A stretch of 64,000 nucleotides of DNA from Aminobacter sp. AP02 (lineage in GTDB: Bacteria; Pseudomonadota; Alphaproteobacteria; Rhizobiales; Rhizobiaceae), in NCBI RefSeq assembly GCF_003148805.1, contig NZ_QGGX01000004.1:1-64000 (forward strand), written 5' to 3'. The position numbers and the translations under genes were made by a program. Position 1 is the stretch's first letter, and every line of letters starts with the position of its first letter. Below are positions 8,632 to 41,119 of the stretch, one piece after another. The notes beneath the pieces were generated by a model. That model was not told where the DNA came from and did not search any database. It worked only from the letters and a program-made list of their open reading frames with translations.

Positions 8632-9501
8632 ATGACGAATGGCGGACAAGACCGAATTGTCTGGCTGAACGGCAGCTTTGTTGCGGCCACTGAAGCGAAG
8701 CTGTCGATTTTCGATCGCGGTTTCCTGTTTGCTGACGGCGTCTATGAAGTTACGGCGGTCCTTGGCGGCAAGCTGGTCGACAGTGCGTTGCATATGGCAC
8801 GGTTGGAACGTTCAGCGCGTGAGCTTGGTCTGCGGCTGCCTGTCACCACGGCCATGATCGAGCAGACCGAGCGAACTTTGATCGAAAGCAATGGGCTTGA
8901 AGAAGGTGTCGTCTACCTCCAGCTGACGCGTGGTGCCGAAGAGCGGAACTTCCTGTTTGGCGACCAGTTGGAACCAACGCTTCTGCTGTTCACGCAGCCC
9001 AAGGTGCTGGTCGACGTTGCCGCTGCCAAAACCGGCATTGCCGTCAAGACGGTGGCCGACCAGCGCTGGGCCCGGCGCGACATCAAGAGCGTGTCTCTCC
9101 TGCCGCAGGTTCTGGCCAAGCGGGACGCACGCGCCGCAGGCTGCGACGAGGCATGGATGGTCGAGGACGGGCATGTCACCGAAGGCGCTTCGTCCACTGC
9201 CTACATCATCACTCGTGACGGCAGGATCGTATCACCGGCAAACAGCAGTCGAACGCTGCCCGGCTGCACGCGCCAGGCGATTGTTCAGTTGATGCAAGAG
9301 AGCGGTCTGACCCTTGAAGAGCGCCGCTTCACCATCGCCGAAGCCCTGAATGCGGGTGAAGCCTTCATGACCAGCGCCTCGAGCCTGGTTATGCCAGTAA
9401 CCTGGATTGATGGCGAGCCGGTTGGCGACGGCAGGCCCGGACCGATCGTCACAAGGCTGCGTGAGCTCTACATCGAGCACGCCCGCGCAAACGCCGGTTG
9501 A
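8632..9501 (+). CDS. dat: D-amino-acid aminotransferase (PLP fold type IV)
   Basis: This class-IV aminotransferase, 289 residues, transfers an amino group from a D-amino acid to a 2-oxo acid. The PLP-binding lysine is K152 (RRDIKSVSLLPQVLAK), the conserved glutamate is E184 (VTEGASSTAY), and the N terminus has the FDRGFLFADGVYEV signature. These fit D-alanine aminotransferase better than branched-chain (IlvE) enzymes, which are longer, but aminodeoxychorismate lyase and R-amine transaminases share the fold. It is transcribed divergently from the amidohydrolase/peptide importer operon, which suggests catabolism of D-amino-acid-containing or N-acyl-D-amino-acid compounds. Confidence 0.82.
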   Translation: MTNGGQDRIVWLNGSFVAATEAKLSIFDRGFLFADGVYEVTAVLGGKLVDSALHMARLERSARELGLRLPVTTAMIEQTERTLIESNGLEEGVVYLQLTRGAEERNFLFGDQLEPTLLLFTQPKVLVDVAAAKTGIAVKTVADQRWARRDIKSVSLLPQVLAKRDARAAGCDEAWMVEDGHVTEGASSTAYIITRDGRIVSPANSSRTLPGCTRQAIVQLMQESGLTLEERRFTIAEALNAGEAFMTSASSLVMPVTWIDGEPVGDGRPGPIVTRLRELYIEHARANAG

Positions 9502-23322: not shown

Positions 23323-24135
23323 ATGACAATTGCCCTGCCGAACGTTCGCCCTGTCACCGACCTCCCGGCCTATTACAGCCCCTCGGGCAACGAATGCAGC
23401 TTGTTTGAACGCGCTTGGGCGCGCCGTCTGCCGCTGCTTCTCAAGGGGCCGACCGGATGCGGCAAGACCCGGTTCGTCAGCCATATGGCGGCCAAGCTCG
23501 GCTTGCCGCTTTCGACCGTCTCCTGCCATGACGATCTGGCGGCGGCCGATCTCACCGGACGCTACCTCCTGAGAGGTGGCGATACTGTCTGGGTCGACGG
23601 GCCGCTCACCCGCGCCGTGCGCGAGGGCGGCATCTGCTATCTCGACGAGATCGTCGAGGCCCGCAAGGACGTAGCCGTCGTCCTGCATCCGTTGACCGAC
23701 GACCGCCGCATCCTGCCGCTGGAACGCACAGGCGAGCAATTGGCTGCGCCGGCGAGCTTCATGCTCGTGGTGTCCTACAATCCTGGCTACCAGAACCTGC
23801 TGAAGAGCCTGAAGCCCAGCACCCGCCAGCGTTTCATCGCCATCGAATTCGATTTCTTGCCCAAGGCAGAGGAAATCGCCGTGGTGTCGGCGGAAAGCGG
23901 CCTGGCCGAGGCGCAGGTGGCGCCGCTTGTCGAACTCGCCCGGCGCGTCCGCGCCCTCAAGGGCCACGACCTGGAAGAGGGCGCATCGACACGCCTGCTC
24001 GTCTACTGCGCAAACCTCATCGATGCCGGCGTGCCGGTGCGCGAAGCAGTGCTTGCCGCAATGATCGAACCGCTGACTGACGAGCCGGATGTGAAGTCGG
24101 CATTGCTCGAACTTGTCGATTCCTTGATCCGCTGA
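23323..24135 (+). CDS. norQ: NorQ, MoxR-type AAA+ ATPase
   Basis: This 270-residue cytoplasmic ATPase works with NorD to insert non-heme iron into NorB. Walker A GPTGCGKTRF is near residue 46, Walker B GGICYLDEI near 105, and sensor sequence VVSYNPGYQ near 148. ATG 23323 sits 77 bases after norB behind a GGAG motif. It shares its design with CoxD further right in this window. Confidence 0.95.
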   Translation: MTIALPNVRPVTDLPAYYSPSGNECSLFERAWARRLPLLLKGPTGCGKTRFVSHMAAKLGLPLSTVSCHDDLAAADLTGRYLLRGGDTVWVDGPLTRAVREGGICYLDEIVEARKDVAVVLHPLTDDRRILPLERTGEQLAAPASFMLVVSYNPGYQNLLKSLKPSTRQRFIAIEFDFLPKAEEIAVVSAESGLAEAQVAPLVELARRVRALKGHDLEEGASTRLLVYCANLIDAGVPVREAVLAAMIEPLTDEPDVKSALLELVDSLIR

Positions 24136-24145
24136 GGCGCCTGTC

Positions 24146-26047
24146 ATGTTGGATTTTCTTGAGCTGGAGGAGACGGTCGGCCGTGCCTGGCACCGGCTCA
24201 TCGGACATGTACAGACCTGGCCGCGCCACCCAGAACATGCGGTGCGCCTTGCCGAGGTGCAGCCGGTTCTGGCTGTCTGTTTCCGCGGATTTGGCGGGGA
24301 GGGAGCGGTGCAGATTGCCACTGCGCGCGGCAAAACCTCGGGTCACAGGCTCGGTTGGCGGCAGCGCATGGGGCTCGGCGAGGAAAAGCTGACCCAGCCC
24401 GGACGCGACATGTCTTCCCTGATTTTGCCCGGCGTGATCGACCTTTTCCCGGACAAGGATCTCAATCGCGATCTCTACGTCTGGCTGGTCGCCTACATGG
24501 CAGTGATGCCGCTCGAGCCTGTGGCCGAGGCTGATCTGCTGCAGCGCGATCTGGCAATGCTTGCGCGCGCGGAAGAGACGGTAGCTCGCTTGCTTGCAAG
24601 CTTTCCCGGCTTCGAACGCCGCTACCGGCGTCTTGCTGCGGCAACGCTTGAAGCGCGCCGGCGCGGGCCATTGCCCGCGGTCGAACTTCAGGTCGAAGGC
24701 CGGATATCGAGCCTTTTGCGGAAGGGCGCTCACCAGGCCGACGATGCGCTGCCGGTCATCTTCCCGCACCGCGCGCCGCCGGGTTATCTGCCCATGCTTC
24801 CCGTACCACTCTGGCCGGATGCGTTGCTGCGCATGGAGACTGCGCCGCGCCGCGGCGAAGACGAGCCGCTTGCTGGCGGCCGTGAGGCGGATGGTGTTGA
24901 GACCGAACGTCAGGTCGCCGTCCGCGAAAACGCGGACGCGCGCAAGGACGAGCGCAGCCCGTTCATCCTCAACCGCTTCGAAAAGATCCTCGCCATGGCC
25001 GAGATGGTCAATGTTGACCGTCCGTCCGACGACAGCGACGACCAGGATGCCAAGGCTGCGGAAGACCTCGACGACATGACGCTGGGCGAGCGCAAAGGCC
25101 GCCCTGCCACGCGCTTTCGCTTCGACCTCGACCTGCCCCCGGAAGCGCTGGACAGGACGCCTTTGACAGCGGAGCGAACCTACCCGGAATGGGATTTCCG
25201 CTCCGGCACCTATCTTCCCGATCATTGCCGGGTCCTTGCCGCGCCTGCTTCGGCCCTTGGCGATTGCGCGGTAACGGATGCCGAGACCACACGCCTCATC
25301 CGGCGGGTTCGGCGCCAATTCGAGGTGCTGCGTCCGCGCCACGAGGTACTGCGCGCCCAACTCGACGGCGCCGATCTCGACCTCGACGCGGTGGTGCGTG
25401 CCCGCACAGACCTGGCAGCAGGCGGACAGGGCAGCGACCGGATCCACCTGATGAGCCGACCGCAGGTGCACGACCTCGCCGTTACCATACTCGTCGACGT
25501 GTCGTTGTCGACGGACGCCTGGTTCGACAATCGCCGGGTGCTCGACGTCGAAAAGGAGGCCTTGCTCATCCTGGCCAACGGGCTTTCAGCCTGCGGCGAC
25601 AATCACTCGATCCTGACATTCACATCGAGAAGGCGCGACTGGGTGCGCATCGAGGCGGTCAAGGCTTTCGACGAACCCATGAGCGCGACGGTCGAGGCGC
25701 GCATCGGCGCCCTCAAGCCGGGTTACTATACCCGCATAGGGACGGCTATCCGGCATGCCACGGCCGAACTGGCAAAGCAGCCCAACCGCAAGAAGCTGCT
25801 TTTGGTGCTGACCGACGGAAAGCCCAATGACATTGACCACTATGAAGGTCGCTTCGCGCTTGAAGACAGTCGCCGTGCGGTGATCGAGGCGCGACGCATG
25901 GGGCTCGGCGTCTTCGGCGTGACAGTCGACCGCGAGGCAAAATCCTACATTCCGGCGCTGTTCGGCCAGAATGGCTACGCGCTGGTTGGCGAAATCAACC
26001 GGCTTCCCGCTGCACTTCCCGCAATCTATCGCAGCCTTGCGGGCTAG
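24146..26047 (+). CDS. norD: NorD, von Willebrand factor A domain protein
   Basis: This 633-residue protein is required with NorQ for active nitric oxide reductase. The long N-terminal part is family-specific; the C-terminal vWA domain begins at about residue 440, with a MIDAS motif DVSLSTD and later VLTDGKPND. It starts 11 bases after norQ and ends at a strong bidirectional terminator. Its length is normal for NorD. Confidence 0.95.
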   Translation: MLDFLELEETVGRAWHRLIGHVQTWPRHPEHAVRLAEVQPVLAVCFRGFGGEGAVQIATARGKTSGHRLGWRQRMGLGEEKLTQPGRDMSSLILPGVIDLFPDKDLNRDLYVWLVAYMAVMPLEPVAEADLLQRDLAMLARAEETVARLLASFPGFERRYRRLAAATLEARRRGPLPAVELQVEGRISSLLRKGAHQADDALPVIFPHRAPPGYLPMLPVPLWPDALLRMETAPRRGEDEPLAGGREADGVETERQVAVRENADARKDERSPFILNRFEKILAMAEMVNVDRPSDDSDDQDAKAAEDLDDMTLGERKGRPATRFRFDLDLPPEALDRTPLTAERTYPEWDFRSGTYLPDHCRVLAAPASALGDCAVTDAETTRLIRRVRRQFEVLRPRHEVLRAQLDGADLDLDAVVRARTDLAAGGQGSDRIHLMSRPQVHDLAVTILVDVSLSTDAWFDNRRVLDVEKEALLILANGLSACGDNHSILTFTSRRRDWVRIEAVKAFDEPMSATVEARIGALKPGYYTRIGTAIRHATAELAKQPNRKKLLLVLTDGKPNDIDHYEGRFALEDSRRAVIEARRMGLGVFGVTVDREAKSYIPALFGQNGYALVGEINRLPAALPAIYRSLAG

Positions 26048-26067
26048 GGGGACAAGGCTGCGATAGC

Positions 26068-26100
26068 GAAAGGCCCGGCGCGCCACAGCCGGGCCTTTTT
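26068..26100. terminator. Bidirectional terminator between norD and hemN
   Basis: GGCCCGGC (26072-26079) and GCCGGGCC (26088-26095) form a perfect stem, flanked by A residues on the left and five Ts on the right. It can stop both the norCBQD transcript and the converging hemN transcript. Confidence 0.85.
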
Positions 26101-26121
26101 GCTTTCAGTGCTTCCGTCCGT

Positions 26122-27474
26122 TCACGCCGCCTTGCTGTGCGTACGGTTCGACTGGTCGAGATAGGCGTCGAAGGCAGCCGCGACCGCCCGTATTACAAAA
26201 CGATGATCCTGGCCGACGCGGATGATGCCGTCTTTCACGTCGAGCACGCCGTCCGCCTCGAGTTCCGCCAGTCTGTCGTTGCCATCGAGAAGCAGTGACG
26301 GGTCAAAGTCATGGGCGCCGCAAACTGTGGGAAGGTCGACGGCGAAATCGCACATGAGGCGCTCGATGATTTCAGCCCGCAGCCGGTCCTCTGCCGTCAG
26401 GCGATAGCCCTTGGCTGTCGCCAGTTGTCCCGAGGCGATGTGCTGGGCATAAAGCCCGGGCGCAACTTCGTTTTGGACATAGCCGCGGTTCATGCGGCCT
26501 ATGGCGGATGCGCCGAAGCCAATAAGCGTCTGGCAATTGTCGGTCGTATAACCTTGGAAGTTACGCCGAAGCTTCCCTGCCTCCTGGACCCCAACGAGAT
26601 CATCGCCCGGCAGCGCGAAATGGTCGAGGCCTATCTGCCGGTAGCCGGCGGCAACCAGCGTCTCGGCAATCGCCTCGGCTTGCGCGTTTCGCGCGGCGCC
26701 ATCGGGCAGGGCAGCCTCGTCGATCATGCGCTGGTGCTTCTTGAACGAGGGGATGTGCGCATATCCAAACACGGCAAAGCGGTCGGGCAGCATGGCAATA
26801 GCCGCATTGGCCGTGTCGATGCAGGATTGCACCGTCTGGTGCGGCAGGCCGTAGATCAGGTCGAAATTGATGCCACGTACGCCGGCGCGGCGGAGATTGT
26901 CCGAGGCTTCCGCTGTCTGCTGCTGGGTCTGGATCCGGTTGATCGCCTTCTGCACCACCGGATCGAAACTCTGGACGCCGAGGCTGGCCCTGTTGACGCC
27001 TGCCGCGCCAAGCGCCTGCGCCATCTCCGCGGTCAGACGGCGTGGGTCAATCTCCACGGCGATGCCTGATGTGTCTGAGAAATCGTAGTGCTCGCGCAGC
27101 AGTGCCGTCAGAGCGAGGAACTCGGCCGGCGAGATGATGGTCGGCGTGCCGCCCCCGAAATGCACTTCGCCAACGGGCAGCCGATGCGGCACGCGTTCTG
27201 CAACCATGCGGATCTCGTCGCGCAGAACGCCGAGATAGTCGAGGATCGGTCGGTCTTGCCGCGTGATCGTGGTGTGGCAGCCGCAGTACCAGCACATCGA
27301 CCGGCAAAACGGGATGTGGAGATAAAGCGAAACGGGATCATTCGCAGGCAATTGTTCCAGCCAGTCGCCATAGGCGCCGGTGCCGATCGAGGGCGAAAAG
27401 CGGGGCGCTGTCGGATAGCTGGTGTAGCGAGGCAATCGGGCCTCGCCATATTTCTGCAGGATGGATGCGGGCAT
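26122..27474 (-). CDS. hemN: Oxygen-independent coproporphyrinogen III oxidase HemN
   Basis: This 450-residue radical SAM enzyme makes protoporphyrinogen IX without oxygen, needed for heme under denitrifying conditions. The cluster motif CRSMCWYCGC (CxxxCxxC) follows YLHIPFC, and GGGTPT, GVQSFD and GLPHQ are family landmarks. ATG 27474 (MPASILQKYGEARLPRYTSYPT) matches HemN starts; the longer frame upstream covers the promoter. A FNR-like site lies 60 bases before the start. Its N-terminal TSYPTAPRF supports true HemN over the shorter HemW-like proteins. Confidence 0.95.
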   Translation of the reverse strand: MPASILQKYGEARLPRYTSYPTAPRFSPSIGTGAYGDWLEQLPANDPVSLYLHIPFCRSMCWYCGCHTTITRQDRPILDYLGVLRDEIRMVAERVPHRLPVGEVHFGGGTPTIISPAEFLALTALLREHYDFSDTSGIAVEIDPRRLTAEMAQALGAAGVNRASLGVQSFDPVVQKAINRIQTQQQTAEASDNLRRAGVRGINFDLIYGLPHQTVQSCIDTANAAIAMLPDRFAVFGYAHIPSFKKHQRMIDEAALPDGAARNAQAEAIAETLVAAGYRQIGLDHFALPGDDLVGVQEAGKLRRNFQGYTTDNCQTLIGFGASAIGRMNRGYVQNEVAPGLYAQHIASGQLATAKGYRLTAEDRLRAEIIERLMCDFAVDLPTVCGAHDFDPSLLLDGNDRLAELEADGVLDVKDGIIRVGQDHRFVIRAVAAAFDAYLDQSNRTHSKAA

Positions 27475-27534
27475 GGCTTTTCCAATTCTGTCGCTCTGGC
27501 TCGCGCTTTCTAGCCCTTCATCCAGCCCGCCTCT

Positions 27535-27548
27535 TTGCGAAATGCCAA
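27535..27548. promoter_or_regulatory. FNR/NnrR-like box upstream of hemN
   Basis: TTGCG-AAAT-GCCAA has one perfect TTGCG half site and one divergent half site. It sits 60 bases before hemN, at a spacing like that of the other boxes in this island. Confidence 0.55.
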
Positions 27549-27691
27549 GCAAGGCGGCCGTGAAGTGGTCTGGCAAATCGATCTGGAGGTGACGAGACTT
27601 CTGACGCCGCTCCACGTCTCCTCGATGGTCCGCCTTCAAGCTGCCCGCCTCGACGAAGCTGTCCATTTGTGCGCAACTGGAGCTTCAGCTC

Positions 27692-28003
27692 TCAATGACA
27701 GGTATGCTGGCTGTTTTCGAGGAATCGCGTCAGCCAAACACATATGCTCTTGAGCCGACGTGTTGACGGCGGCCGAAGCATCGGCAGTGGTCGGTGCTGG
27801 TTCGATACGCCAAGAATAGGGATGACCAGGAAGGCCGCAAATCGGCTTCGCCCAGCTGTTGTCACAACAAATCTGAGGTCCGGGAAGCGGGATTCGAGTG
27901 CTTGGCGCATTTCCTGTTGCTTCCTGGGGTCGTCAAACAAGCTGCCTTGCGGCGGCACCACGAGAAACTCACTGCACTCACCGCTGTAGTATTGCTCAGG
28001 CAT
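27692..28003 (-). CDS. Conserved hypothetical protein, copy 1 of a local paralogue pair
   Basis: This 103-residue soluble protein begins MPEQYYSGECSEFLVVPPQG and has a strongly conserved core, KQQEMRQALESRFPDLRFVVTTAGRSRFAAFL, then a basic C terminus. ATG 28003 follows GGAGG with a 5-base spacer; the paralogue at 35834-36145 has the same length, strand and ribosome-site layout. Similarity between the two may extend a few codons upstream (ERMEDIM against RRVEDLM), so an earlier ATG at 28015 or 28054 is possible. I do not recognise the family. The pair brackets the YcaO-TfuA cluster. Confidence 0.6.
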   Translation of the reverse strand: MPEQYYSGECSEFLVVPPQGSLFDDPRKQQEMRQALESRFPDLRFVVTTAGRSRFAAFLVIPILGVSNQHRPLPMLRPPSTRRLKSICVWLTRFLENSQHTCH

Positions 28004-28402
28004 GATGTCCTCCATGCGTTCGTCAACTTCGCTGGCGATATGGATGTGAGGCATGCGATCGGCGCACCGAGACCGCCTTACAACCGGCAGATTGCCGTTT
28101 ACGCGTGATCCCAGCGCTTGCCGGGCGTGAAGGCTGTGCCGGTCACGGCGATACATGCATGGTTGTTGTCACGGTCCGGCCTCCCACTCGAAGACATGCC
28201 GCAATCACGTCCGAAAACGGGTCGCACGAGAGCAGGGGAAACAAGGGCGCGCCCTGCATCTGCGGCGGCGCCGTTGGTTGCAGTAGCTGTTCGAGAGCCA
28301 GTTTCCGTTTGCCAGTCCAATGCTATAGTCGCAACGTGAAGCTGGTTCTCGCGTGCAGACATTCCGAACGCACTGATCGCGCAATTCCTACCGTGGATCC
28401 GC
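28004..28402. other. Divergent intergenic region upstream of the YcaO gene
   Basis: About 400 bases separate the divergent 103-residue gene and the YcaO gene. Short reading frames exist here on both strands but none has convincing protein character. The promoter of the YcaO-TfuA operon should be here; I cannot place it or an operator with confidence. Confidence 0.4.
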
Positions 28403-29632
28403 ATGGTTTCAGATTGTACGTCTCCCGATGCGCCAAAATTGTACCGCCAAGGTACCCATCGCACGGTATCTCCCGCCGAAACCCTTGCGCGGGTTCGCCC
28501 CTTTCTCGATGCGATGGGGATAACGCGGGTTGCCAACGTCACCGGCCTCGACCGCATCGGAATTCCGGTGGTGACCGTAGTCCGGCCGAACTCGCGTTCT
28601 GTGGCAGTGTCGCAAGGAAAAGGCGCCACACTCGATGCCGCCAAAGCCTCCGGCGTCATGGAGGCCATTGAAGGTTTCCATGCCGAGCGTATTGAAAAGC
28701 CGCTCAGGCTTGGCAGCCGAAACGAACTTGCGGCGAGCCTTGATCTGGCCGATCTGGATGGGCTAGCCCGGCTTCACGGCAGTCGCGTTGACGGCGACCT
28801 GCCACTTTTGTGGATCGAGGGATTCGACTGGATAGCCAAGCGATCGGTCTGGTTGCCCTATGAGGTGGTTCACAGCAACTACACGCTGCCTTCGGTCGCC
28901 CGCAGCGGATGCTTCGTTGAAAGCACCAATGGGCTGGCGTCCGGCAACCATATGCTGGAAGCCGTCGCCCACGGCATTGCCGAAGTCGTGGAGCGTGACG
29001 CGACCACCTTGTGGAACAGGCTGCCGGACGCGACGCGACGCAAGACCCGGCTCGATCTCGATTCCGTCGATGACTTGACCTGCTCGAGCTTGATCGGACA
29101 GTTGCGCAATGCTGGCATGTCCGTCGGCGTCTGGAACATCACCAGCGATGTCGGGGTGCCTTCCTTTTTCTGCTTGATTGTCGACGATCGGCTCAAGCTG
29201 GGCCATTCCGGCGCCGGCGCAGGCTGTCACCCGGCCCGCGAGATCGCATTGTTGCGCGCCTTGACGGAAGCCGTTCAGGTGCGAACCAACTACATCACCG
29301 GGGCCCGCGACGACCTTCGGCGCGACGAGTATGAAGCGTCGGGACTTGCTGCGAAACTGGCATGGGCGAGGCGTCTTATGGACGGGCAGACAAGCGTCGA
29401 TTTCCGCCAAATAGCCTCGACGGATTTTGTTTCGCTTGGCGAAGATATCGACTGGATGTTGGAACGGCTCCAGGGCGTAGGCATTGGCCAGGTGATTTCG
29501 GTCGACCTCACGAGGCCGGAATTCGGCGTGCCGGTGGCGCGGGTCGTCATTCCCGGCCTGGAAGGACCCGACGATCACGACCACTATAGCCCGGGGCTGC
29601 GGGCGCTTGCACTTGGTGGCAGGCGGCCATGA
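28403..29632 (+). CDS. YcaO-domain peptide cyclodehydratase/thioamidase
   Basis: This 409-residue YcaO enzyme uses ATP to activate a peptide backbone amide, giving azolines or, with a partner such as TfuA, thioamides. Three conserved nucleotide/Mg-binding blocks are visible: SQGKGATLDAAKASGVMEAIEGFHAE (about 70-95), STNGLASGNHMLEAVAHGIAEVVERD (about 174-199) and GCHPAREIALLRALTEAVQVR (about 274-294). There is no fused E1-like or flavin domain. Its stop overlaps the TfuA start (ATGA), so the two are translationally coupled. The ribosome site before ATG 28403 is weak. Its likely substrate is the repeat protein encoded at 32562. The reaction here is inference. Confidence 0.93.
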   Translation: MVSDCTSPDAPKLYRQGTHRTVSPAETLARVRPFLDAMGITRVANVTGLDRIGIPVVTVVRPNSRSVAVSQGKGATLDAAKASGVMEAIEGFHAERIEKPLRLGSRNELAASLDLADLDGLARLHGSRVDGDLPLLWIEGFDWIAKRSVWLPYEVVHSNYTLPSVARSGCFVESTNGLASGNHMLEAVAHGIAEVVERDATTLWNRLPDATRRKTRLDLDSVDDLTCSSLIGQLRNAGMSVGVWNITSDVGVPSFFCLIVDDRLKLGHSGAGAGCHPAREIALLRALTEAVQVRTNYITGARDDLRRDEYEASGLAAKLAWARRLMDGQTSVDFRQIASTDFVSLGEDIDWMLERLQGVGIGQVISVDLTRPEFGVPVARVVIPGLEGPDDHDHYSPGLRALALGGRRP

Positions 29633-30972
29633 CATTTGTCGTCTTTGCGGGCCCGACGATTTCGGCAGCCGACATCACCTCGGTCATGGACACGGTAGTC
29701 CTGCCGCCTGTTTCCATGGGCGATGTCTATCGCTGCGGACGAACCCGCCCGCGCGCGATCGGCATCGTCGACGGCTATTTCGACGGTGTGCCGTCAGTTT
29801 GGCACAAGGAGATATTGTGGGCGATCGAGCAAGGCATCGCCGTCTTCGGCGCCGCCAGCATGGGCGCGCTTCGGGCGGCGGAGTTGCGTGCGTTCGGCAT
29901 GCGCGGGGTCGGCCGCATTTTCGAGGCCTTTCGTGACGGTGTGCTGGAAGATGACGATGAAGTTGCCATCCAGCATGGCCCAGCCGAGATAGGCTATCTC
30001 CCCTTGTCGGAACCCATGGTCAATATCCGCGCAACCCTCGACCAAGCAGTGCGGGAAGGCGCGATCGGGCGGCAAGTCGCGGAGCAGCTGTCAGCAATGG
30101 CAAAGGCGAGTTTTTATCCCGAACGCCGGTGGCGGCCGCTGCTGGAACGAGCATTGGCCGATGGCCTGGACAAGGAAGCTTTTAAAGTGTTCGAAGCCTG
30201 GCTGCCGCAAGGCAAGGTCGATCAGAAGCGGCTGGACGCACTGGCCATGTTCGAGGCCATGAAGGCCTTCCGGCGTGAAGAGACCGGCCCAAGGACAGCC
30301 GGGTATCGGCTGGAATGGACGACGATGTGGGCGCAAGCCTTGCGCGACATCGAGGCCACAGAAATGGATCTGGGCTATGGATCGGCGATCATCGATGAAC
30401 TCAGGCATGATCCGCAACGGTTTCGGGTGGTAAGGCGCAATGCCACCGCAAGACTTCTTGCCGGGCGCGCCGGAAATCAGGGATCGGACACAGCACGCGA
30501 TGTCGCCCGCGCCTCGACCCGGTTTCGCACCGAACGAAGGCTGTTCACCCAGGCCGCATTCGATGGCTGGCTCATCGACAACGACTTGGACAAGAGTGGT
30601 TTCGAACAGATGATTGAAGGTGAGGCTCGGCTGGCGGCGACTGAGGCCGATACCGATCTCCGCCACCACATGCTGGACGAGCTTCGCCTTGGCGACACGT
30701 ATGGCGAACTGGCAAAAGGCGCGCGGCGAAAGCGCGACCTCCTGCAAGGCCTGGGCATGCCAGACCCTGCGCCTTCCCACACCGGCCTGACTGTCCTAGA
30801 ACTACGACGGTGGTTTTTCGAGACGCGGCTCAACCGCCGGATGCCGGCTGACCTGACCGATTTCTTTGAGGACGCTGGCTATCCGGACAACGAAACATTC
30901 GATCGCGCGATAGCTCGCGAATACATATTCTGGAGCAGGGCCGGCACTGAAAACAATTCGCCGGAGGAATGA
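29629..30972 (+). CDS. TfuA-domain protein, YcaO partner
   Basis: This 447-residue protein has a TfuA core in residues about 1-150: VFAGPTIS at the N terminus, then GVPSVWHKEILWAIEQGIAVFGAASMGALRAAEL, and DDDEVAIQHGP. The remaining about 300 residues form a helical C-terminal extension longer than in minimal TfuA proteins. TfuA was named from trifolitoxin biosynthesis in Rhizobium; TfuA-YcaO pairs are known to install backbone thioamides, for example in methyl-coenzyme M reductase, where TfuA is thought to help deliver sulfur. It overlaps the YcaO gene by four bases and is followed 52 bases later by a metalloprotease-like gene. Confidence 0.9.
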   Translation: MTFVVFAGPTISAADITSVMDTVVLPPVSMGDVYRCGRTRPRAIGIVDGYFDGVPSVWHKEILWAIEQGIAVFGAASMGALRAAELRAFGMRGVGRIFEAFRDGVLEDDDEVAIQHGPAEIGYLPLSEPMVNIRATLDQAVREGAIGRQVAEQLSAMAKASFYPERRWRPLLERALADGLDKEAFKVFEAWLPQGKVDQKRLDALAMFEAMKAFRREETGPRTAGYRLEWTTMWAQALRDIEATEMDLGYGSAIIDELRHDPQRFRVVRRNATARLLAGRAGNQGSDTARDVARASTRFRTERRLFTQAAFDGWLIDNDLDKSGFEQMIEGEARLAATEADTDLRHHMLDELRLGDTYGELAKGARRKRDLLQGLGMPDPAPSHTGLTVLELRRWFFETRLNRRMPADLTDFFEDAGYPDNETFDRAIAREYIFWSRAGTENNSPEE

Positions 30973-31024
30973 CTTGGCAGGGAGAGAACCGGCGCAGTAA
31001 TTTGCCGGGGAGGGATTTTCGGTC

Positions 31025-32380
31025 ATGTTCCGTGTTCCGCATGCAGTCGATCTTCCACAAGGGACGCGCTTCCGCTTGTTTCCGCAACTTCCGACGCGCG
31101 AAGAACAAGGAGAGCCCGAAACAGTCTGGGTTTCGCCGCCAGCAGGAACCGTCTTTGCAGGACCGGCCGATGCCCGCATTTACGTCATCCAGCCCATCGG
31201 CAAGGAAAAGCCTTATGGCTATTACGAGGAAGCGGGAGGACAAGTTATCCACTACGGGCCGCCATGGATCGGACCGATCGTTCCGCGGGCCGAGCCCGAC
31301 AGGGAAGGCCATTTCGATCATATCGAATTTGGCACGCCGCAGTTCCTCCAGGCGCATGCATATGGTGCCATACGGTTCACATTGGACATATGGCAGGAGT
31401 ATTTCGGTCGCGGCATCGGCTGGCATTTCGATGACAGCCGAGAAAAGCTGGAGGTCGTGTTCCTGCCAGGGCTAGACAATGCCTATGCCGGCTACGGCTC
31501 GATCGAAATCGGCTCGTTTTTCACACCGGCTGGCAACTGGGTCGAATTTGGATTGAGCTTCGATGTCATCTCGCACGAGACGGGCCACCTGATCATCTAT
31601 GGCGAAGTGGGCCTTCCAGACTCCGACAACATTCCCGGCGAACATTTCGGGTTCCATGAATCTTCCGCCGACATGGTGTCTTTGATCTCGCTCATGCATT
31701 TCGAAACCGCCCTGATCGGGGTGCTAGATGCGAGCCATGGTAATCTTTACAGCTACAACCGGCTCAACCGATTTGCAGAGGTGTCCGACCTCGACCAGCT
31801 GCGCCTCGCGTCCAATCCTCTGACGCTCTATGATTTCGTGGACGGATGGGTGAAAGAACATGATCTGGCCCAGCCGCTGACAGGCGCCCTGTTTGACATC
31901 TGGGTCGACGTTTTCCACGAAGATCTGCTGAGGCGGGGGCTGATCCCGGCGCAACTTGAAGACCTGTCGGATCAGCTCGAGGGTGATCCGTCTTATCACA
32001 ACGTCGTCCAGCCCCTGTTCGACGAAGCCTATGGTAAGAACCCGGAAGGCTTTGCGGCATGTCTAGCCGACGCGCGGGACTATATGGGCCGCGCGTTGGC
32101 GCAATGCTGGTCAAGTTTGCAGCCGCTTCAACTGGACTATGCCGAAGTTGCGCGGGCATTCCTTGCCGCCGACGACCAACTGAATGACGGACGGTTCCAT
32201 AGGATCATCACCGGCAATATGGAGCGGCGCGGGATCGGTCTGGTGCGCGCCGGACCAAGATTGCCGTCGTCGGCGAAGGACAGCCACAGTTTTTCGAAGC
32301 GCGCCCCCGAACCGGGGATGCAGCAGCACTACCGACATCTTCCTTACCGGACGCGGATCGCGCTCCAGCAACGTGTGTAG
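31025..32380 (+). CDS. Zinc-metalloprotease-like protein (HExxH, gluzincin type)
   Basis: This 451-residue protein has a classical zinc site HETGH at 184-188 and a downstream HESSAD at 211-216, whose E212 would be the third ligand. The spacing recalls gluzincins such as thermolysin (M4), although overall similarity to M4 is not obvious. No signal peptide is visible, so it is probably cytoplasmic. The C terminus after about residue 405 is Arg/Ser/Pro-rich. ATG 31025 follows GGGAGGGA. It lies between TfuA and the repeat-protein gene, a natural place for the protease that trims a leader or cuts between repeats. That role is inference. Confidence 0.75.
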   Translation: MFRVPHAVDLPQGTRFRLFPQLPTREEQGEPETVWVSPPAGTVFAGPADARIYVIQPIGKEKPYGYYEEAGGQVIHYGPPWIGPIVPRAEPDREGHFDHIEFGTPQFLQAHAYGAIRFTLDIWQEYFGRGIGWHFDDSREKLEVVFLPGLDNAYAGYGSIEIGSFFTPAGNWVEFGLSFDVISHETGHLIIYGEVGLPDSDNIPGEHFGFHESSADMVSLISLMHFETALIGVLDASHGNLYSYNRLNRFAEVSDLDQLRLASNPLTLYDFVDGWVKEHDLAQPLTGALFDIWVDVFHEDLLRRGLIPAQLEDLSDQLEGDPSYHNVVQPLFDEAYGKNPEGFAACLADARDYMGRALAQCWSSLQPLQLDYAEVARAFLAADDQLNDGRFHRIITGNMERRGIGLVRAGPRLPSSAKDSHSFSKRAPEPGMQQHYRHLPYRTRIALQQRV

Positions 32381-32561
32381 AGGGGCTGAGACGCTGTCCG
32401 AGGTAACGCTCGCCTATTGCGCGCCGGCACAAGCCGAGGTTGCCTCTATTGAGGCCTAGCGATAACGGCGTCGATCATTTGAATAACGATGAATTCATGT
32501 TAGCTTTCGCACAAAGCTGGGTGCGGACGATTTTTTTGTTTATTGGTCAAGGAGAGGTAAC

Positions 32562-33191
32562 GTGGCAGAAACCCTTCTCAGTACCTCCACGATGCTGTTG
32601 TTTGGCAGGGTCATGGACGACATGAAGTACAGTCCAGTCGATCCTCGGACACCTGCCGGCCCTCCGGCAGCAGCCGATGCTGGCGACCCGCCGCGATTCG
32701 GCGACAATAACGACTTGATCGAACAGTTACTTGCAGACAAGGACAATGATAACAAGAGTGTCAGATTTGCAAGAATATACGGTTTTGCTTTCGAAGGCCA
32801 GTATTATGACTTTGCCAGGCCGCAGATATTTCTCGTTCATGGAAGTGGAACCAAGGCTGAGAGCCCTGTTCCCGGAGGTGCCGCCAAGATCCGGGGCAAA
32901 CGTAGTGCCGACAGGGCCGGCGTAGCTTCAAGCGACGAGTCTTTCGCCGAGGACATCATGGTGTGGTCTTACGACAAGGGCGATTATCTCGTACGTCTGG
33001 ATCCCTCGGCAGGGCCGCTAGAGCAGATTGTCCTCGATGCAGAGCTGGATGCTGGCGCCACCTACAGCGGTGGAAAAGCCTATAGTGGTGGCAAGGCCTA
33101 CAGCGGCGGAAAAGCCTATAGTGGTGGCAAGGCCTATAGTGGTGGCAAAGCCTATAGTGGCGGCAAGGCTTACGGCGGCAACAGCGACTAG
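32562..33191 (+). CDS. Candidate RiPP precursor with C-terminal YSGGKA repeats
   Basis: This 209-residue protein starts at GTG 32562 behind an excellent AAGGAGAGG ribosome site; an ATG ten codons in is the fallback start. Residues 1-167 are a mixed, acidic, cysteine-free region (SARFARIYGFAFEGQYY-like core near 65-82, acidic stretch before the tail). Residues 168-203 are six perfect YSGGKA units and 204-209 read YGGNSD. Each unit offers one Ser, two Gly, one Tyr and one Lys. With YcaO, TfuA and a protease upstream, a leader-plus-repeated-core RiPP precursor is the best reading. The leader is unusually long, so a structural repeat protein that is merely modified is the main alternative. Confidence 0.72.
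   Translation: MAETLLSTSTMLLFGRVMDDMKYSPVDPRTPAGPPAAADAGDPPRFGDNNDLIEQLLADKDNDNKSVRFARIYGFAFEGQYYDFARPQIFLVHGSGTKAESPVPGGAAKIRGKRSADRAGVASSDESFAEDIMVWSYDKGDYLVRLDPSAGPLEQIVLDAELDAGATYSGGKAYSGGKAYSGGKAYSGGKAYSGGKAYSGGKAYGGNSD
33063..33170 (+). repeat. Six tandem 18-bp repeats encoding YSGGKA
   Basis: Six in-frame 18-bp units run without interruption. Units 2 and 4 are identical at all 18 bases, and units 1 and 3 differ at a single third-codon position, so growth by copying a 36-bp dimer is likely. Differences between units are synonymous, so the peptide is kept exact while the DNA drifts, which indicates selection on the amino-acid repeat. Confidence 0.95.
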
Positions 33192-33234
33192 CGCGGATCG
33201 TCTCGAAGCGATGGCGCGCCCGTGGGTTCCTGGC

Positions 33235-33711
33235 CTACTGGTCGCTCCACCGCATATGCAGTTTGGTGTGGTCGCTGCCATTCAGCTCGAAGCCCAATCT
33301 GCGATAGAGGCTGATGGCGCGGTTGCCCCGCAACAGTGACAGCAGCAACGGCTTGCCCATGCTGCGTGCCTCGGCCATCGTCTCACGGATCAGTTTCGTG
33401 CCAATGCCTCGCCCCCGGATCTCTTCGTTGAGGTGGATCTGGTCGAGATGGACCTCGCTCGCAGTATGCGAGACCTGTATCCAACCAGCTTTCACCCCGT
33501 CGACCAGGACAATCCTGATCTCTTCGGACTTGAAATACTCCTTGAAGGCGTTCTTCACCTTCTTTTCGTCCCAGATGCCGAGCGCCTTTTGCAGTGGGTG
33601 CATGGATGAGAGGTAAAGGGCGCGGCAGAAGCCAAAATCGCCTGCAGCGGCAGGGCGCATCGTGAAGGGCGCCAGCGCATCGCGCGCCGCTCCGGGTTCT
33701 TGCAGGCTCAT
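33235..33711 (-). CDS. GNAT-family N-acetyltransferase
   Basis: This 158-residue acetyltransferase has the acetyl-CoA pyrophosphate-binding signature EEIRGRGIGTKLIRETM near residues 95-111 and the GNAT C-terminal strand SLYRRLGFELNGSD. It starts in the last codon of the upstream regulator gene (ATGA overlap) and ends 44 bases from the converging repeat-protein gene. A lysine in every YSGGKA unit makes the neighbouring peptide a conceivable substrate; no sequence feature proves this. Substrate is otherwise unknown. Confidence 0.85.
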   Translation of the reverse strand: MSLQEPGAARDALAPFTMRPAAAGDFGFCRALYLSSMHPLQKALGIWDEKKVKNAFKEYFKSEEIRIVLVDGVKAGWIQVSHTASEVHLDQIHLNEEIRGRGIGTKLIRETMAEARSMGKPLLLSLLRGNRAISLYRRLGFELNGSDHTKLHMRWSDQ

Positions 33712-35555
33712 TTGATGCCGGCCTCTCTCAAGCCGTCGATCAGCCGTTCCCGTGGTTCCGGGTTGCGATCCGGTGGCACGTTCGTCCAGTGCGCGAGCGT
33801 GAATTCGGGATGGGTAAGCAGAAGTTGCCTGGCGTATTGCCGGGCTTCGCTCAGACGCCCGAGCAAGGCATTGCTGGCGGTCAGCATACGATAAGCCTCG
33901 GTCTTGTCATGCATCTGGTTGAGCGTACGGATCGCCTGCTCATAGTCTTGCATGTCGAAATAGGCTTCGCCCAGGTGCCAGAGATACCAGTCGGGATAAT
34001 AAGGATTTAGGCGCATGGCTCGTTTGATCAAGGAAACGGCCCGCTCCGTATCGCCATAGACTGAGACGGAATGCCCCATTTCGGCCAGCACGTCTGCATC
34101 GTTGGGATTGGCGCCGAGGGCACGCTCGTAGGCGGCCAGTGAGGCTTCGTGGTCGCGTTTATAGAGGTAGGCGCTGCCCAAGGCGGCATAGCCACGCGCG
34201 TCACCCGGATCGAGGCGGATGGCAATCTCGGCTTGCCTGACCGCTTCGTCCAGCGACGGTTCAGGTGGGTCGACCCAGTTGAAGCGCCACGCATCGTTGA
34301 GCGTGCGTGATATCCCTACGTAGGATCGGGCATAATTGGGATCGACCTCGGCTGCCTGCTCGAAAAGGCGACGGGCATGCTGGTTGGTTTCGCGCAGCAG
34401 CCGCTGGTAGACGTATTTGCCGTGCAAAATGAGGCCGTAGGCCTGCAAGTCTGACGGCGCGCTGAGCGCCATGCGGTGCATTTCCGATGCGCTCACCTCG
34501 ATCGACAGGCGCGATGCGACTACATTGGTGACTTCGTCCTGAAAGGCGAAAATGTCGTTCATGTCGCCGTCGTAGCGGTCCGACCAGATGGAGCGCTCCG
34601 ACATCGCATCTATGAGTTGAAACTGGATGCGAACCTTGTTTGCGATCCGCTGGTAGCCGCCATCGACAAGATAGCGAACCCCAAGCCGGGCACCAATCTC
34701 GCGAGGCGACAGGTTCATTCCATGGAACACCAAGGACGATCGCTGTGCGATGACGTGAAGGTCATGGAAACGGGTCAGGTTTGAAATGATATCGCCTGTC
34801 ACGCCGTGACAGATATGAGGCGGCTCCCCAGAGAGATTCTCCAGCTGCATAACCGCGATCGAGCTTACAGGCATCGAATGGAACGCAGCTTCGGACAAGC
34901 CGTTCGTTTCGCCGTATTCCGCGCCATTGCCAGAAACGAGAAACAGCCCACTTGCTTCCTTGCGGCCATTGAGCGGTGATGATTCCATCACGGCTTCCAC
35001 GCGCGCGGTGTCGCTTGGGCTCTCCGCAACATCGATTTGAGGTTTTGCCTTGTTCGTCTGAAGCAGGTGTTGCCGGGCCTGCCACCAATAGTTTCTTTCG
35101 GTGGTCAGCCAGTCCTCAAACTCCGGGTCGCGAATATCGATGCCTTCCAGGAAATCGGCATCGATGGAGTCCCGCAGGAGTGCGGCACCTTCCAACTGGG
35201 AAGAGCGTCCCTCGGTAAGAGCAAGGAGATCGAGTTCAATCAGATCCAGCCGAATACGGACCGAAGTTCGGTCTGTCTCGATCACGTCGGCGTGGGGTCC
35301 CAGGCACTTTCGGATATGGGTCAGTGCCTGTCGCAGGCTCGACGAAGCCTGTTCGGCTTCGCGGTCGCTCCAGAGCTTGTCGCACAGCCAGACCCGGCTT
35401 CGCACCCCGTGCTCGGAGGTCGCAACCAAAGCCAGGAGCGCCTGCGCTTTCTGCGCTTTCGGTGTTATGTATTTTCCGTCAGGTCCGATCAGCGCGAATG
35501 CTCCAAGCAGGCACATTTGTACGCGCCGCATGGCTACATCTTCACCATTCTTCAT
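33708..35555 (-). CDS. SARP/BTAD-like transcriptional activator with TPR domain
   Basis: This 615-residue protein has an OmpR-like winged-helix region at about 10-90 (LLGAFALIGPDGKYITPKAQKAQALLALVA, then SSLRQALTHIRKCLG), a BTAD-like segment to about 165, a TolB/FlgO-like domain at about 230-345 (SIAVMQLENLSGEPPHICHGVTGDIISNL, then DVVASRLSIEV-like end), and C-terminal TPR repeats (ARGYAALGSAYLYKRDHEASLAAYERAL, ADVLAEMGHSVSVYG). SARP proteins often activate natural-product clusters. It is coupled to the GNAT gene and faces the YcaO operon, so it is the most likely local regulator. A second start, ATG at codon 9, is possible. Confidence 0.82.
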   Translation of the reverse strand: MKNGEDVAMRRVQMCLLGAFALIGPDGKYITPKAQKAQALLALVATSEHGVRSRVWLCDKLWSDREAEQASSSLRQALTHIRKCLGPHADVIETDRTSVRIRLDLIELDLLALTEGRSSQLEGAALLRDSIDADFLEGIDIRDPEFEDWLTTERNYWWQARQHLLQTNKAKPQIDVAESPSDTARVEAVMESSPLNGRKEASGLFLVSGNGAEYGETNGLSEAAFHSMPVSSIAVMQLENLSGEPPHICHGVTGDIISNLTRFHDLHVIAQRSSLVFHGMNLSPREIGARLGVRYLVDGGYQRIANKVRIQFQLIDAMSERSIWSDRYDGDMNDIFAFQDEVTNVVASRLSIEVSASEMHRMALSAPSDLQAYGLILHGKYVYQRLLRETNQHARRLFEQAAEVDPNYARSYVGISRTLNDAWRFNWVDPPEPSLDEAVRQAEIAIRLDPGDARGYAALGSAYLYKRDHEASLAAYERALGANPNDADVLAEMGHSVSVYGDTERAVSLIKRAMRLNPYYPDWYLWHLGEAYFDMQDYEQAIRTLNQMHDKTEAYRMLTASNALLGRLSEARQYARQLLLTHPEFTLAHWTNVPPDRNPEPRERLIDGLREAGIK

Positions 35556-35833
35556 CGGGTCCCGCTCTCAATTACGCTACGGCAGGTAACAACAGTTTCC
35601 TGTGGAACGCAATGCGATTGCGGCTGGATCTGCCCTAGCTACCTGCGCGGCTAGGGTCAGGATCGGCCGGCGGAAACCGTCAGCATGTTGTCAGCCAGCT
35701 TCCGCGTGGCGAAATGCTGGGGTGAAGTGCAGCCCGTTGGCGGTCATGTGGTTTCGAATTAGGTCGGGCGCAGTTCTTCAGCGCGCCGGATACTGTGTTC
35801 ACTTTCGATCTGGTCAAGCGCATGGCGGCTTGC

Positions 35834-36145
35834 TCAATGAAGGCTTCGTTTGTTCTCTTCGAGAAATTGGGTCAAAAAAGTGCCGATTCTCTCGAGCAGA
35901 GCCAAAGATGGCAGTGGACGTTTAGGTGGCTGCCGGCCCTTGCCAGCGACGCCGCCAATCGGGACAATCAGGAAGGCCGCGAACCGGCGCCGCCCCTCCG
36001 TCGTGACCACAAATCTGAGGCTGGGGAAACTGGATTCCAGCGCTTCGCGGATCTCCTGTTGCTTCCAAGGGGCGTCGAATTGGCAGCCATTGGGTGGCAC
36101 CACGAGAAACTTATTGCACTCGCGATTTTCGAAATCACCGCGCAT
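35834..36145 (-). CDS. Conserved hypothetical protein, copy 2 of a local paralogue pair
   Basis: This 103-residue protein begins MRGDFENRECNKFLVVPPNG and shares with copy 1 the pattern FLVVPP, KQQE.R.ALES.FP.LRFVVTT.GR.RFAAFL and a C-terminal leucine/basic helix. ATG 36145 follows GGAGG with a 5-base spacer, as in copy 1. Function is not recognised. Identity in the core is high but the C-terminal third has diverged, so the duplication is not recent. Confidence 0.6.
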   Translation of the reverse strand: MRGDFENRECNKFLVVPPNGCQFDAPWKQQEIREALESSFPSLRFVVTTEGRRRFAAFLIVPIGGVAGKGRQPPKRPLPSLALLERIGTFLTQFLEENKRSLH

Positions 36146-36811
36146 CAAATCCTCCACACGTCGATCCTGCGCAGGACTGATTGCATGCCCGGCGTGATGC
36201 CATCGTATATGGAACGTGAAAAGCTGCATGCGCCGACCTGCGCCGTACAGAATGTGGCTCGGCGCTGGCTATGTCAGGGTGTGTAGGTACAACAAAGGCC
36301 TGCTTGGAAGTTTTTCCAAGCAGGCCATTTGCATCGCGCACGGCATTTTGTGCTTGGGGGGCGGGGGGCACCGACGCAATGCTCGGTTAAAGGATGTAAG
36401 GCGCCACGCCGGCACTCTGCCCACCAACCCATACCAATCCTGCCCTGCAACCCCGCAGCAAGCAACTACATCAATGGATTGATACGATCGATCTGCTTCG
36501 AGCCTGCGGCGATCAGACATGCCAAAAAACGATTGGCCTTCAATCACGACGTGAAGCAGGTTTTGCGAGCGACCAAACCGACTGCGCCGGCAAGAGGGAC
36601 AAGCGAGGGATCAATTCCGATAACGCTGGCCTAGGTCATCCATGTTCGGCGTTTAAGGGCGCCCGGCCGTCACTCCAAGCAGGTTAACTTACTGCGTCAA
36701 ACAACTGATAAGTATACTAAATAGATTGATCGAGCAGACGTCGAGCACGGATTGACACCTGCAACGATACAAGGGAGACTTGAACGACTCGGGGTCTGGT
36801 GAGGAGGGTCT
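36146..36811. other. Long intergenic region before the RND efflux genes
   Basis: This 666-base region has no convincing gene. It holds a strong hairpin at 36297-36326 and a G-run (about 36356-36372). The last part before 36812 is AT-richer and ends in a good GAGGAGGG ribosome site, so the efflux promoter probably lies there. Confidence 0.45.
36297..36326 (-). terminator. Strong hairpin, possible minus-strand terminator
   Basis: GGCCTGCTTGGAA (36297-36309) pairs perfectly with TTCCAAGCAGGCC (36314-36326) around a 4-base loop. On the minus strand TTTGTTG follows, a weak U-tract. No gene is visible immediately upstream on that strand, so it may be a leftover terminator or a mobile-element scar. 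Confidence 0.45.
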
Positions 36812-37957
36812 ATGAGAAGGTATTTCCGTCGATCGGTTGCCCTCACTTTGCTCCTTGCCGTGCAGGCTGCCGCAGGTCTTGAAGCGCAGAGCCAAGAAGC
36901 CAACAATCCGGCGGGCGCACCGCTACCAGTGACAGTTACAAAAGTCGTATCCAAAGACCTTCGCCCCACCATTTCCTTTACAGGACGCGTCGAGGCAATC
37001 GACAAAGTCGGCCTGCGTGCACGCGTCGATGGCTTTCTGGAAAAGAAGCTCTTCACCGAAGGACAGCAGGTCAAGGTTGGCGACCTGCTTTTCGTTCTAG
37101 AAAAGGGGCAATATGAAGCCGCGGTGAGCCAGGCGCAGGGCGCACTCGAGTCAGGGCAAGCGGCGCTGGCGCTTGCCAACATCGAGGTGGAACGCCAAAG
37201 CATTCTCGTCGCGAAGAACACCGCATCCAAGGCAGCACTGGATTTGGCAAATGCCAAGCAGCAGGAAGCGACCGGGAGCGTGGTTCAGTGTCAGGCATCG
37301 CTTGACAAGGCAAAGCTGGACCTTGGGTACACGGAGATCCGCGCCCCAATAACGGGGCGCGTCGGGCGCTCCCAATATTCCGTTGGGACTTTCGTCGGTC
37401 CCTCAAGCGATGCGCTGGCTATCATAGTTAGCCAGGACCCCATTTATGTGACGTTCTCGGTATCCCAACGCGAGCTGCTCGCTGTGCGCGAAAAGCTCGG
37501 CAATGCGGGGCAACTCGGTGCCGAGGTCGAAGAAGCGATCATCCGCGTCCAGCTTGCCGACGGCAGCACGTATGCCCATTCCGGCAAGGTCAATTTTGTC
37601 GACGTAACCGTGGACCAAGGCACTGATACCGTGCCCGTCAGGGCGACATTTCCCAACCCCGAACTGATCTTGATCGACGGCCAACTCGTCAATGTAACTG
37701 TCGAGGGCGGCACACCTGAGGCCAGGCTTGTCGTGCCCCAGTCCGCGATCCAGCTAGACCAATCCGGTGCATTCGCACTCGTTGTCAACAAGGATCACAA
37801 GATCGAAGTCCGGCGGATTCAGGCCGACCAAACAGCAGGGAGCGACCTTTCCGTGACTAGTGGTCTCAATGTCGGGGACATGGTTGTGACTGAAGGAATA
37901 CAGAGAGTTCGTCCAGGCCAGGTTGTCGAGCCGGTCGAAGCCAAGTCGGGCTCCTGA
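36812..37957 (+). CDS. RND efflux periplasmic adaptor (membrane fusion protein)
   Basis: This AcrA/BepF-like periplasmic adaptor of 381 residues links an RND pump to an outer-membrane channel. It has a signal peptide (VALTLLLAVQAAAGLEA), a biotinyl-lipoyl half (VGLRARVDGFLEKKLFTEGQQVKVGDLLFVL), a coiled-coil hairpin (about 105-150), the second lipoyl half (LGYTEIRAPITGRVG), and a beta-barrel domain. No lipobox cysteine is visible. It is followed three bases later by the pump gene; no outer-membrane factor gene or TetR regulator is adjacent. Confidence 0.95.
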   Translation: MRRYFRRSVALTLLLAVQAAAGLEAQSQEANNPAGAPLPVTVTKVVSKDLRPTISFTGRVEAIDKVGLRARVDGFLEKKLFTEGQQVKVGDLLFVLEKGQYEAAVSQAQGALESGQAALALANIEVERQSILVAKNTASKAALDLANAKQQEATGSVVQCQASLDKAKLDLGYTEIRAPITGRVGRSQYSVGTFVGPSSDALAIIVSQDPIYVTFSVSQRELLAVREKLGNAGQLGAEVEEAIIRVQLADGSTYAHSGKVNFVDVTVDQGTDTVPVRATFPNPELILIDGQLVNVTVEGGTPEARLVVPQSAIQLDQSGAFALVVNKDHKIEVRRIQADQTAGSDLSVTSGLNVGDMVVTEGIQRVRPGQVVEPVEAKSGS

Positions 37958-37960
37958 ACC

Positions 37961-40900: not shown

Positions 40901-41119
40901 GCGGGCTTGATTCCGCTTGTGATTGCCGAGGGTGCGGGCATGCTTAGCCGCCGCGGAGTCGGAACAGCCGTGTTCGGCGGCATGTTGGGGGCTGCGGCGG
41001 TCGGCATCTTCCTGATCCCGGTGCTGTATGTGAACTTCCAGTGGCTTCGAGAAAAAGCGAAGTCCCTCCGGCGACCCCCAAATGCTCCCGAAGCGGCGCC
41101 AGCGGAACTGGAAAACTGA
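37961..41119 (+). CDS. RND-type multidrug efflux transporter (HAE1 family)
   Basis: This 1052-residue inner-membrane proton-drug antiporter has twelve membrane segments and two large periplasmic loops. The proton-relay pair is in [15 protein letters not shown] (TM4) and the partner lysine in [18 protein letters not shown] (TM10), so it should be active. The N terminus [28 protein letters not shown] and [22 protein letters not shown] are typical of AcrB/MexB/BepE proteins. Substrate is unknown. It likely uses a TolC-like protein encoded elsewhere. Confidence 0.96.

Follow-up and report, generated by a model that had tools for sequence, protein, structure and literature searches.

A repeat-tailed candidate precursor in a conserved YcaO–TfuA–protease cassette of Aminobacter sp. 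AP02 and other Pseudomonadota

Layout and distribution of the cassette

What is the role of a protein that ends in a string of identical hexapeptides and is encoded beside a YcaO–TfuA pair? The question is raised by a four-gene locus in the first 64,000 nucleotides of contig NZ_QGGX01000004.1 (the window) of Aminobacter sp. AP02, whose genome spans 5.6 Mb. The four genes lie on the same (+) strand and encode a YcaO enzyme of 409 residues (28403..29632; Pfam YcaO, 7e-80), a TfuA of 447 residues (29629..30972; Pfam TfuA, 2.5e-48 over residues 48–166), a predicted thermolysin/fungalysin-like zinc protease (31025..32380) and RepN (32562..33191), a candidate precursor of 209 residues without Cys. 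Alignments and a structure model divide RepN into a small β domain and a repeat tail, which consists of six exact YSGGKA units (33063..33170), the candidate core array, followed by YGGNSD. The YcaO and TfuA genes share the four bases ATGA, whereas 52 bases separate TfuA from the protease and 181 bases separate the protease from RepN. The GTG start of RepN matches the start position in its relatives, and an AAGGAG stretch was seen by eye 5´ of it. An earlier, sequence-only reading had described the gene overlap, the HETGH and HESSAD motifs of the third gene and the exact repeats of the fourth. All of these hold, with Pfam supporting the identities of YcaO and TfuA and the zinc-protease site being complete on a predicted fold.

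A profile of the RepN domain, with the tail left out, was scanned against 84,980 species and returned 142 relatives, of which 80 loci were kept. The hosts are marine and soil bacteria: Ruegeria, Leisingera, Roseovarius, Mesorhizobium, Rhizobium and other Alphaproteobacteria, together with some gammaproteobacterial metagenome-assembled genomes (MAGs). YcaO is encoded at 63 of these loci, TfuA at 64, the protease at 74 and a TPR regulator at 75; all three enzymes stand together at 63, and TfuA is present at every locus that has YcaO. A scan for the protease found it in 53 of 297 genomes of the family (the window's own counted), with 41 strong matches besides the window. The gene order YcaO–TfuA–protease is kept in 39 of the 40 Rhizobiaceae loci examined among these. 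RepN or protease matches were what brought the plasmid and family loci into the set, so the co-occurrence counts are drawn from the 80 and 40 loci only. YcaO, TfuA, the protease and RepN are a conserved cassette, to which a TPR regulator is usually adjacent. The same RepN profile matched 16 genomes in a sample of 397 from the order, 5 in 385 from the class and 3 in 398 from the phylum, each count including the window's own; within the genus, RepN is present in one of ten genomes, which is the window's own.

The sequence-only reading had taken the repeat tail as the multi-copy core of a ribosomally synthesized and post-translationally modified peptide (RiPP), and had named a RepN widespread without YcaO and TfuA as the pattern that would speak against it. 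The neighbourhoods show another pattern, and the 17 incomplete loci can be itemised. Six of them lie at contig ends (L078, L083, L091, L126, L137 and L155). In three (L110 and L113 from Leisingera, L120 from a Rhodobacteraceae MAG) the genome has TfuA elsewhere together with the protease; in L113 and L120 these stand about 19 kb off, on a contig of the same length. Seven form one mostly Rhizobium branch, whose tails resemble SRSGG or GRSSG (L111, L115, L117, L133, L144, L148 and L152), and the last (L082) has a large unrelated frame upstream.

The repeat array and the domain that carries it

The tails were compared in a set of 102 rows (the window, 5 plasmid, 16 family and the 80 profile loci), which contains 95 non-identical proteins and 91 with distinct last 80 residues. 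A tandem array is found in 90 of the 91 distinct tails, with a period of five in 71, six in 7 and seven in 12, and 23 unit types can be distinguished, such as YSGGKA, VSGAK, MNARG, RADMT and QSRAMM. All but one (L080) of the 95 non-identical proteins exceed the 99.9% level of 1900 shuffled tails, far beyond chance, and 68 of the 94 arrays hold 6 to 8 copies. The units are maintained at the protein level. Summed over unit pairs, the six YSGGKA units of the window differ by 46 synonymous and no non-synonymous codon changes, and the ratio of non-synonymous to synonymous differences (pN/pS) between units of one gene is 0.03, a simple count over non-independent unit pairs that indicates purifying selection. 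Lys and Arg replace each other within otherwise constant units (VSGAK/VSGAR). The last residue is Asp or Glu in 87 of the 91 proteins.

In composition, Arg or Lys occurs in 20 of the 23 unit types, Gly in 22 and Ser or Thr in 19. Ala, Gly or Ser precedes Arg, Lys or His in 17 types, and a residue of this wider kind, with Val, Gln, Thr, Pro and Cys also allowed, does so in 21; exactly one of the residues VLIMFYW is present in 17 types. These three counts stand without a null, in units where small residues abound. A pentapeptide-repeat protein or helix was considered for the array and rejected: the matches are weak (9 of 36 RepN members, best 7e-6), the period in the window is six, and 19 of 90 arrays have a period of six or seven.

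The arrays vary along with the enzymes. On a tree of YcaO, TfuA and the protease from 65 loci, the unit types for the most part follow the clades; the YSGGKA group consists of the window, L079, L081 and L151, while VSGAR and VSGAK each recur in more than one place. RepN distances correlate with those of each enzyme (r 0.74–0.76, a level reached by none of 999 permutations), a pattern that common descent by itself would also produce. The conserved domain of RepN carries an array that is under selection and specific to the lineage, and in most loci a thioamidation pair and a protease are encoded next to it.

The domain resembles no named family in the searches made. The best Pfam score (0.18) is below the cut-off, NCBIfam and PHROG give no match for the RepN of the window, and a fold search of the PDB with the RepN model, itself only partly confident, returned nothing at E ≤ 0.001. 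Two PDB sequence matches to the repeat region (E 0.3–0.4) were taken as chance. The model has a mean predicted local distance difference test score (pLDDT) of 64, with strand blocks at 82–92 and residues 167–209 below 50 except one, which predicts a disordered tail in the window. RepN proteins range from about 150 to 313 residues and exceed 255 in 44 of 95, often through an extra inserted segment, and no signal peptide is evident by eye. As a side observation, the insert of the L042 protein (8374–9279, − strand), which separates the N-terminal motif from the β domain, is similar to part of phage head-decoration and tail-fibre proteins (phrog_2647, 2e-9; only L042 was scanned).

The repeat-tailed proteins (clade A) have more distant relatives. 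Clade B proteins contain Cys and end in a single, conserved, non-repeated tail, PGxRSPxxYA... (17 aligned), and the two profiles match with an hhalign probability of 97.1 (E 5e-11). The clade B profile retrieves the RepN of the window at 4e-8 and has matches in 2 of 289 genomes, the window's own included. In the more distant protease group, YcaO and TfuA are present at 23 of 23 loci. At one of these, L058 (8583–9569, − strand), a further array was found: a 329-codon frame that the RepN profiles missed occupies the RepN slot of the YcaO–TfuA–protease cluster and encodes about 14 QSRAMM units followed by the acidic end SGDAHHNSDDE; its codon differences over unit pairs are 174 synonymous against 26 non-synonymous. 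By sequence pattern, RepN has the conserved leader and variable core of a thioamidated RiPP precursor.

Enzymes, proposed route and alternatives

Adjacent ycaO and tfuA genes, as in thioamidated RiPP clusters, are found in the window, and both enzymes are nearest in sequence to thioamide-forming ones, which counts for a thioamidated product. Against NCBIfam, YcaO scores 245.8 bits with methan_mark_1 (cut-off 365) and 127.5 with the SagD cyclodehydratase family. Its best PDB match is MJ1094 (4e-34), ahead of the cyclodehydratases TruD and LynD, with the ATP-site motifs aligned by eye, which puts it nearest to the archaeal enzymes of McrA-glycine thioamidation. Residues 4–214 of TfuA match the solved TfuA-domain protein 6xp8 (7.5e-36), and the protein continues for about 230 residues beyond the TfuA domain. 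This extension is usual in repeat-tail clusters, where the median TfuA length is 444 (81 measured, from 233 up), and is missing in clade B, where the median is 249 (23 measured). For both YcaO and TfuA, the scores against the nearest named, McrA-type families are below the curated cut-offs.

The third gene product is predicted to be an M36/M4-like zinc protease. Its AlphaFold2 model (mean pLDDT 81.5) finds M36/M4 proteases as the top folds in Foldseek (best 1e-7), HExGH is kept in 118 of 118 protease loci examined (some being the same genome twice), and every one of these has the E..D motif of the third ligand (found by pattern in 105 and by eye in 13). HExxH, a downstream Glu ligand and a predicted fold of M4/M36 peptidases are thus found together, while no curated Pfam family matches the protein of the window. 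Weak Pfam matches were obtained among 25 relatives to Peptidase_M4 (7, best 0.0018), M36 (2) and Reprolysin_4 (5). PDB sequence matches to the designed repeat proteins Cake and nvBagel (3e-8 for the whole sequence) were taken as chance, as no single stretch passed.

We infer that RepN gives rise, as a ribosomal precursor, to a multi-core thioamidated peptide; that the array is the substrate would account most simply for its variation along with the enzymes. The N-terminal motif and β domain would form the folded leader on which the enzymes dock, and YcaO and TfuA would thioamidate the backbone within the array. The site would lie before Arg or Lys, as suggested by the thiovarsolin precedent discussed below and by the 17 of 23 unit types with Ala, Gly or Ser there. 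The protease would then cleave the array. A plausible place in each unit is just before its hydrophobic residue, given that thermolysin-type enzymes cut before hydrophobic residues and that 17 of 23 unit types have exactly one. At loci that encode an acetyltransferase, this enzyme may cap the product. We put the probability of such a multi-core thioamidated RiPP system, working like that of thiovarsolin but having a folded leader domain and a protease of its own, at roughly 60%. The multi-copy core proposed in the sequence-only reading is partly upheld, in that co-occurrence is widespread, the repeats are lineage-specific and selected, and the protease has its site and predicted fold. The accompanying proposal of an oxazoline at the Ser of each unit is not supported, since Ser, Thr and Cys are all missing from units such as MNARG, NARGA and GGGKV.

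Several observations weigh against this proposal. The strongest is the SRSGG/GRSSG branch, which has the protease, RepN and the regulator and no YcaO or TfuA nearby, so that protease and RepN can remain paired without an adjoining YcaO and TfuA. Five of the seven genomes of this branch have TfuA elsewhere and two, both MAGs, have none, and nothing ties the distant copies to RepN: one stands in a clade B cluster, and the others, in the stretches examined, are YcaO–TfuA pairs without a protease match. Two Paracoccus plasmids encode RepN, yet their whole records gave no match to the protease; the one examined has YcaO–TfuA–RepN with a short array of three imperfect units. No transporter family occurs in more than 20 of the 80 loci, the top one resembling generic ABC ATPases by eye, which is odd for a secreted product. 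AMVSG and ANLSG break the Arg/Lys rule and six of the 23 unit types the one-hydrophobic rule, L080 is without a repeat, and the RepN model is only partly confident.

Among the alternatives, the one that survives best, though we consider it unlikely, is that RepN is a lasting intracellular protein in which several tail units are thioamidated by YcaO and TfuA. The modified protein itself would work in the cell, as McrA and uL16 do with one thioamide each, and the protease would do no more than trim its end or set its level. The large size, the predicted folded domain with its frequent insert, the retained acidic C-terminal residue, the lack of a widely conserved exporter and the absence of an evident signal peptide are all in keeping with this. 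An equally doubtful form of it has a folded RepN thioamidated at every unit with the tail still attached, as a modular unit swapped between lineages with the enzymes keeping pace; this would be, to our knowledge, the first folded bacterial protein thioamidated at more than one backbone site. The units, however, vary between lineages in length and sequence as a core would, and the protease site is complete at every locus examined. A YcaO enzyme can indeed need a folded protein substrate, as reported for EcYcaO and ribosomal protein uL16 (PMC13063428).

Less probable still is an unmodified tail, in which RepN and the protease form a pair (as substrate, inhibitor or chaperone), the repeats are cationic binding or structural elements, for example pentapeptide-repeat-like, and YcaO and TfuA act elsewhere. 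The SRSGG branch fits such a pair, and the weak pentapeptide-repeat matches and the prevalence of Arg and Lys fit such repeats. In contrast, YcaO and TfuA are kept at 39 of 40 and 63 of 80 loci, periods of six and seven misfit a pentapeptide helix, the window tail is predicted to be disordered, and no other candidate substrate stands out among the recurring frames.

It is improbable that the HExxH protein is an iron oxygenase and not a protease. HEXXH oxygenases with a zincin-like fold are described from RiPP clusters (PMC12636437), but the best folds are M36/M4 proteases, the weak Pfam matches are to M4 and M36, with Reprolysin_4 also among them, and the thermolysin-type Glu ligand motif is conserved. 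The remaining candidate, azolines formed by YcaO at the Ser of each unit, agrees with the single Ser of YSGGKA and with the Ser or Thr of most unit types, but it is not supported and very improbable: four types lack Ser, Thr and Cys altogether (AARADM, ANARG, ARGMN and GGGKV, in 7 of 90 proteins, although other array copies in L150 hold Thr), TfuA accompanies YcaO at all 63 loci, no ThiF-type gene is among the 13 open reading frames of the window scanned (23323 to 41119), and the C-terminal PxPxP that is the rule for azoline-forming YcaO enzymes is absent from the last 25 residues in 103 of 103 YcaO proteins.

Neighbouring genes and relation to known systems

Downstream of RepN and on the opposite (−) strand lie a GNAT acetyltransferase (33235..33711; Pfam, 1e-10), an optional part of the cassette, and the TPR regulator (33708..35555; Pfam TPR), which is convergent to the cassette and whose gene overlaps that of GNAT by 4 bases. 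The GNAT type of the window is found at 8 of the 80 loci and another type at 46, which is in keeping with an acetylated product that may be formed and is not proof of one. A cyclase domain was found in both relatives of the TPR regulator that were scanned. Frames of at least 100 residues that recur in more than 20 of the 80 loci encode only the cassette, the regulator and GNAT. A search for a smaller precursor gave no convincing family of frames of 20–99 residues, and short peptides unique to a locus are possible; the top twelve families, the commonest in 39 of 63 loci, are shadow frames in the regulator gene by coordinates and by eye. A gene of about 110 residues lies 3´ of RepN in the Rhizobium SRSGG branch at 4 of 80 loci (L033:8600–8932, L117:9450–9779), and its L033 copy has no Pfam match. 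In Rhizobium-type genomes (L191–L195), more YcaO–TfuA pairs stand beside SARP/TPR regulators related to that of the window, and these stretches gave neither a protease match nor a recognised substrate. A stem-loop followed by a T run at 32506–32527, between the protease and RepN, might set their ratio, but the promoter and terminator scan as a whole was not above chance, with fewer sites than in shuffled sequence. An RND efflux pair (HlyD-type and AcrB-type) is encoded near the cassette at 36812–41119. Export through this pump was rejected, as it is absent from the neighbours recurring across the 80 loci, and a role in anti-phage defence was dropped after PADLOC gave no match for six proteins.

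The closest precedent is thiovarsolin, from the var cluster of Streptomyces varsoviensis, with a repeated APR core, a Pro–Arg thioamide and N-acetylation (PMC6511847). Both systems combine a YcaO–TfuA pair with a repeated-core precursor, and precursors within the thiovarsolin family are described as ranging from non-repeating to repeated (PMC6511847). The thioamide of thiovarsolins stands before Arg (PMC6511847), and in most RepN units a residue precedes Arg or Lys. Unlike thiovarsolins, the RepN cassette has its own zinc protease, a precursor of about 150–313 residues with a predicted domain, near-identical units of 5–7 residues and hosts among the Pseudomonadota; acetylation, which is shown for thiovarsolins, is only guessed for RepN. 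Genes of the VarO, VarL and VarS types were not recognised among the families recurring in the 80 loci (by eye) or the 13 open reading frames of the window, and no heme oxygenase, ATP-grasp, amidinotransferase or MFS gene was seen by eye among the recurring neighbours. The McrA thioglycine system of methanogens (PMC5589413), also of YcaO–TfuA type, provides the closest named YcaO and TfuA families by score, whereas the RepN cassette is bacterial, with a separate many-unit substrate and a long TfuA extension. The EcYcaO/uL16 system acts without TfuA on one site of a ribosomal substrate (PMC13063428).

A survey of TfuA clusters counts more than 500 in Rhizobium alone, finds most TfuA clusters overall to be proteobacterial, and describes only nine of the clusters examined as resembling known thioamidated ones (PMC8120280). 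The RepN cassette is probably among these proteobacterial clusters. Precursors were sought in the survey by RiPPER at standard settings, and the word 'repeat' does not occur in its main text (PMC8120280); as the default precursor window of RiPPER is given as 20–120 residues (PMC6511847), RepN would be missed. No published description of a RepN-type precursor or its unit strings was found in the literature searched. The RepN set is a widespread, apparently undescribed candidate precursor family for YcaO–TfuA and is not a member of the thiovarsolin family. By hand-matched positions, of the 66 TfuA genes that 199 Rhizobiaceae genomes contain, 23, including that of the window, adjoin the RepN-cassette protease, so the cassette could supply a substrate for about a third of them. 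Length-limited precursor searches can overlook such a substrate class, and more than 20 natural unit sequences, most with sequenced partner enzymes, would provide a test bed for site choice by YcaO–TfuA.

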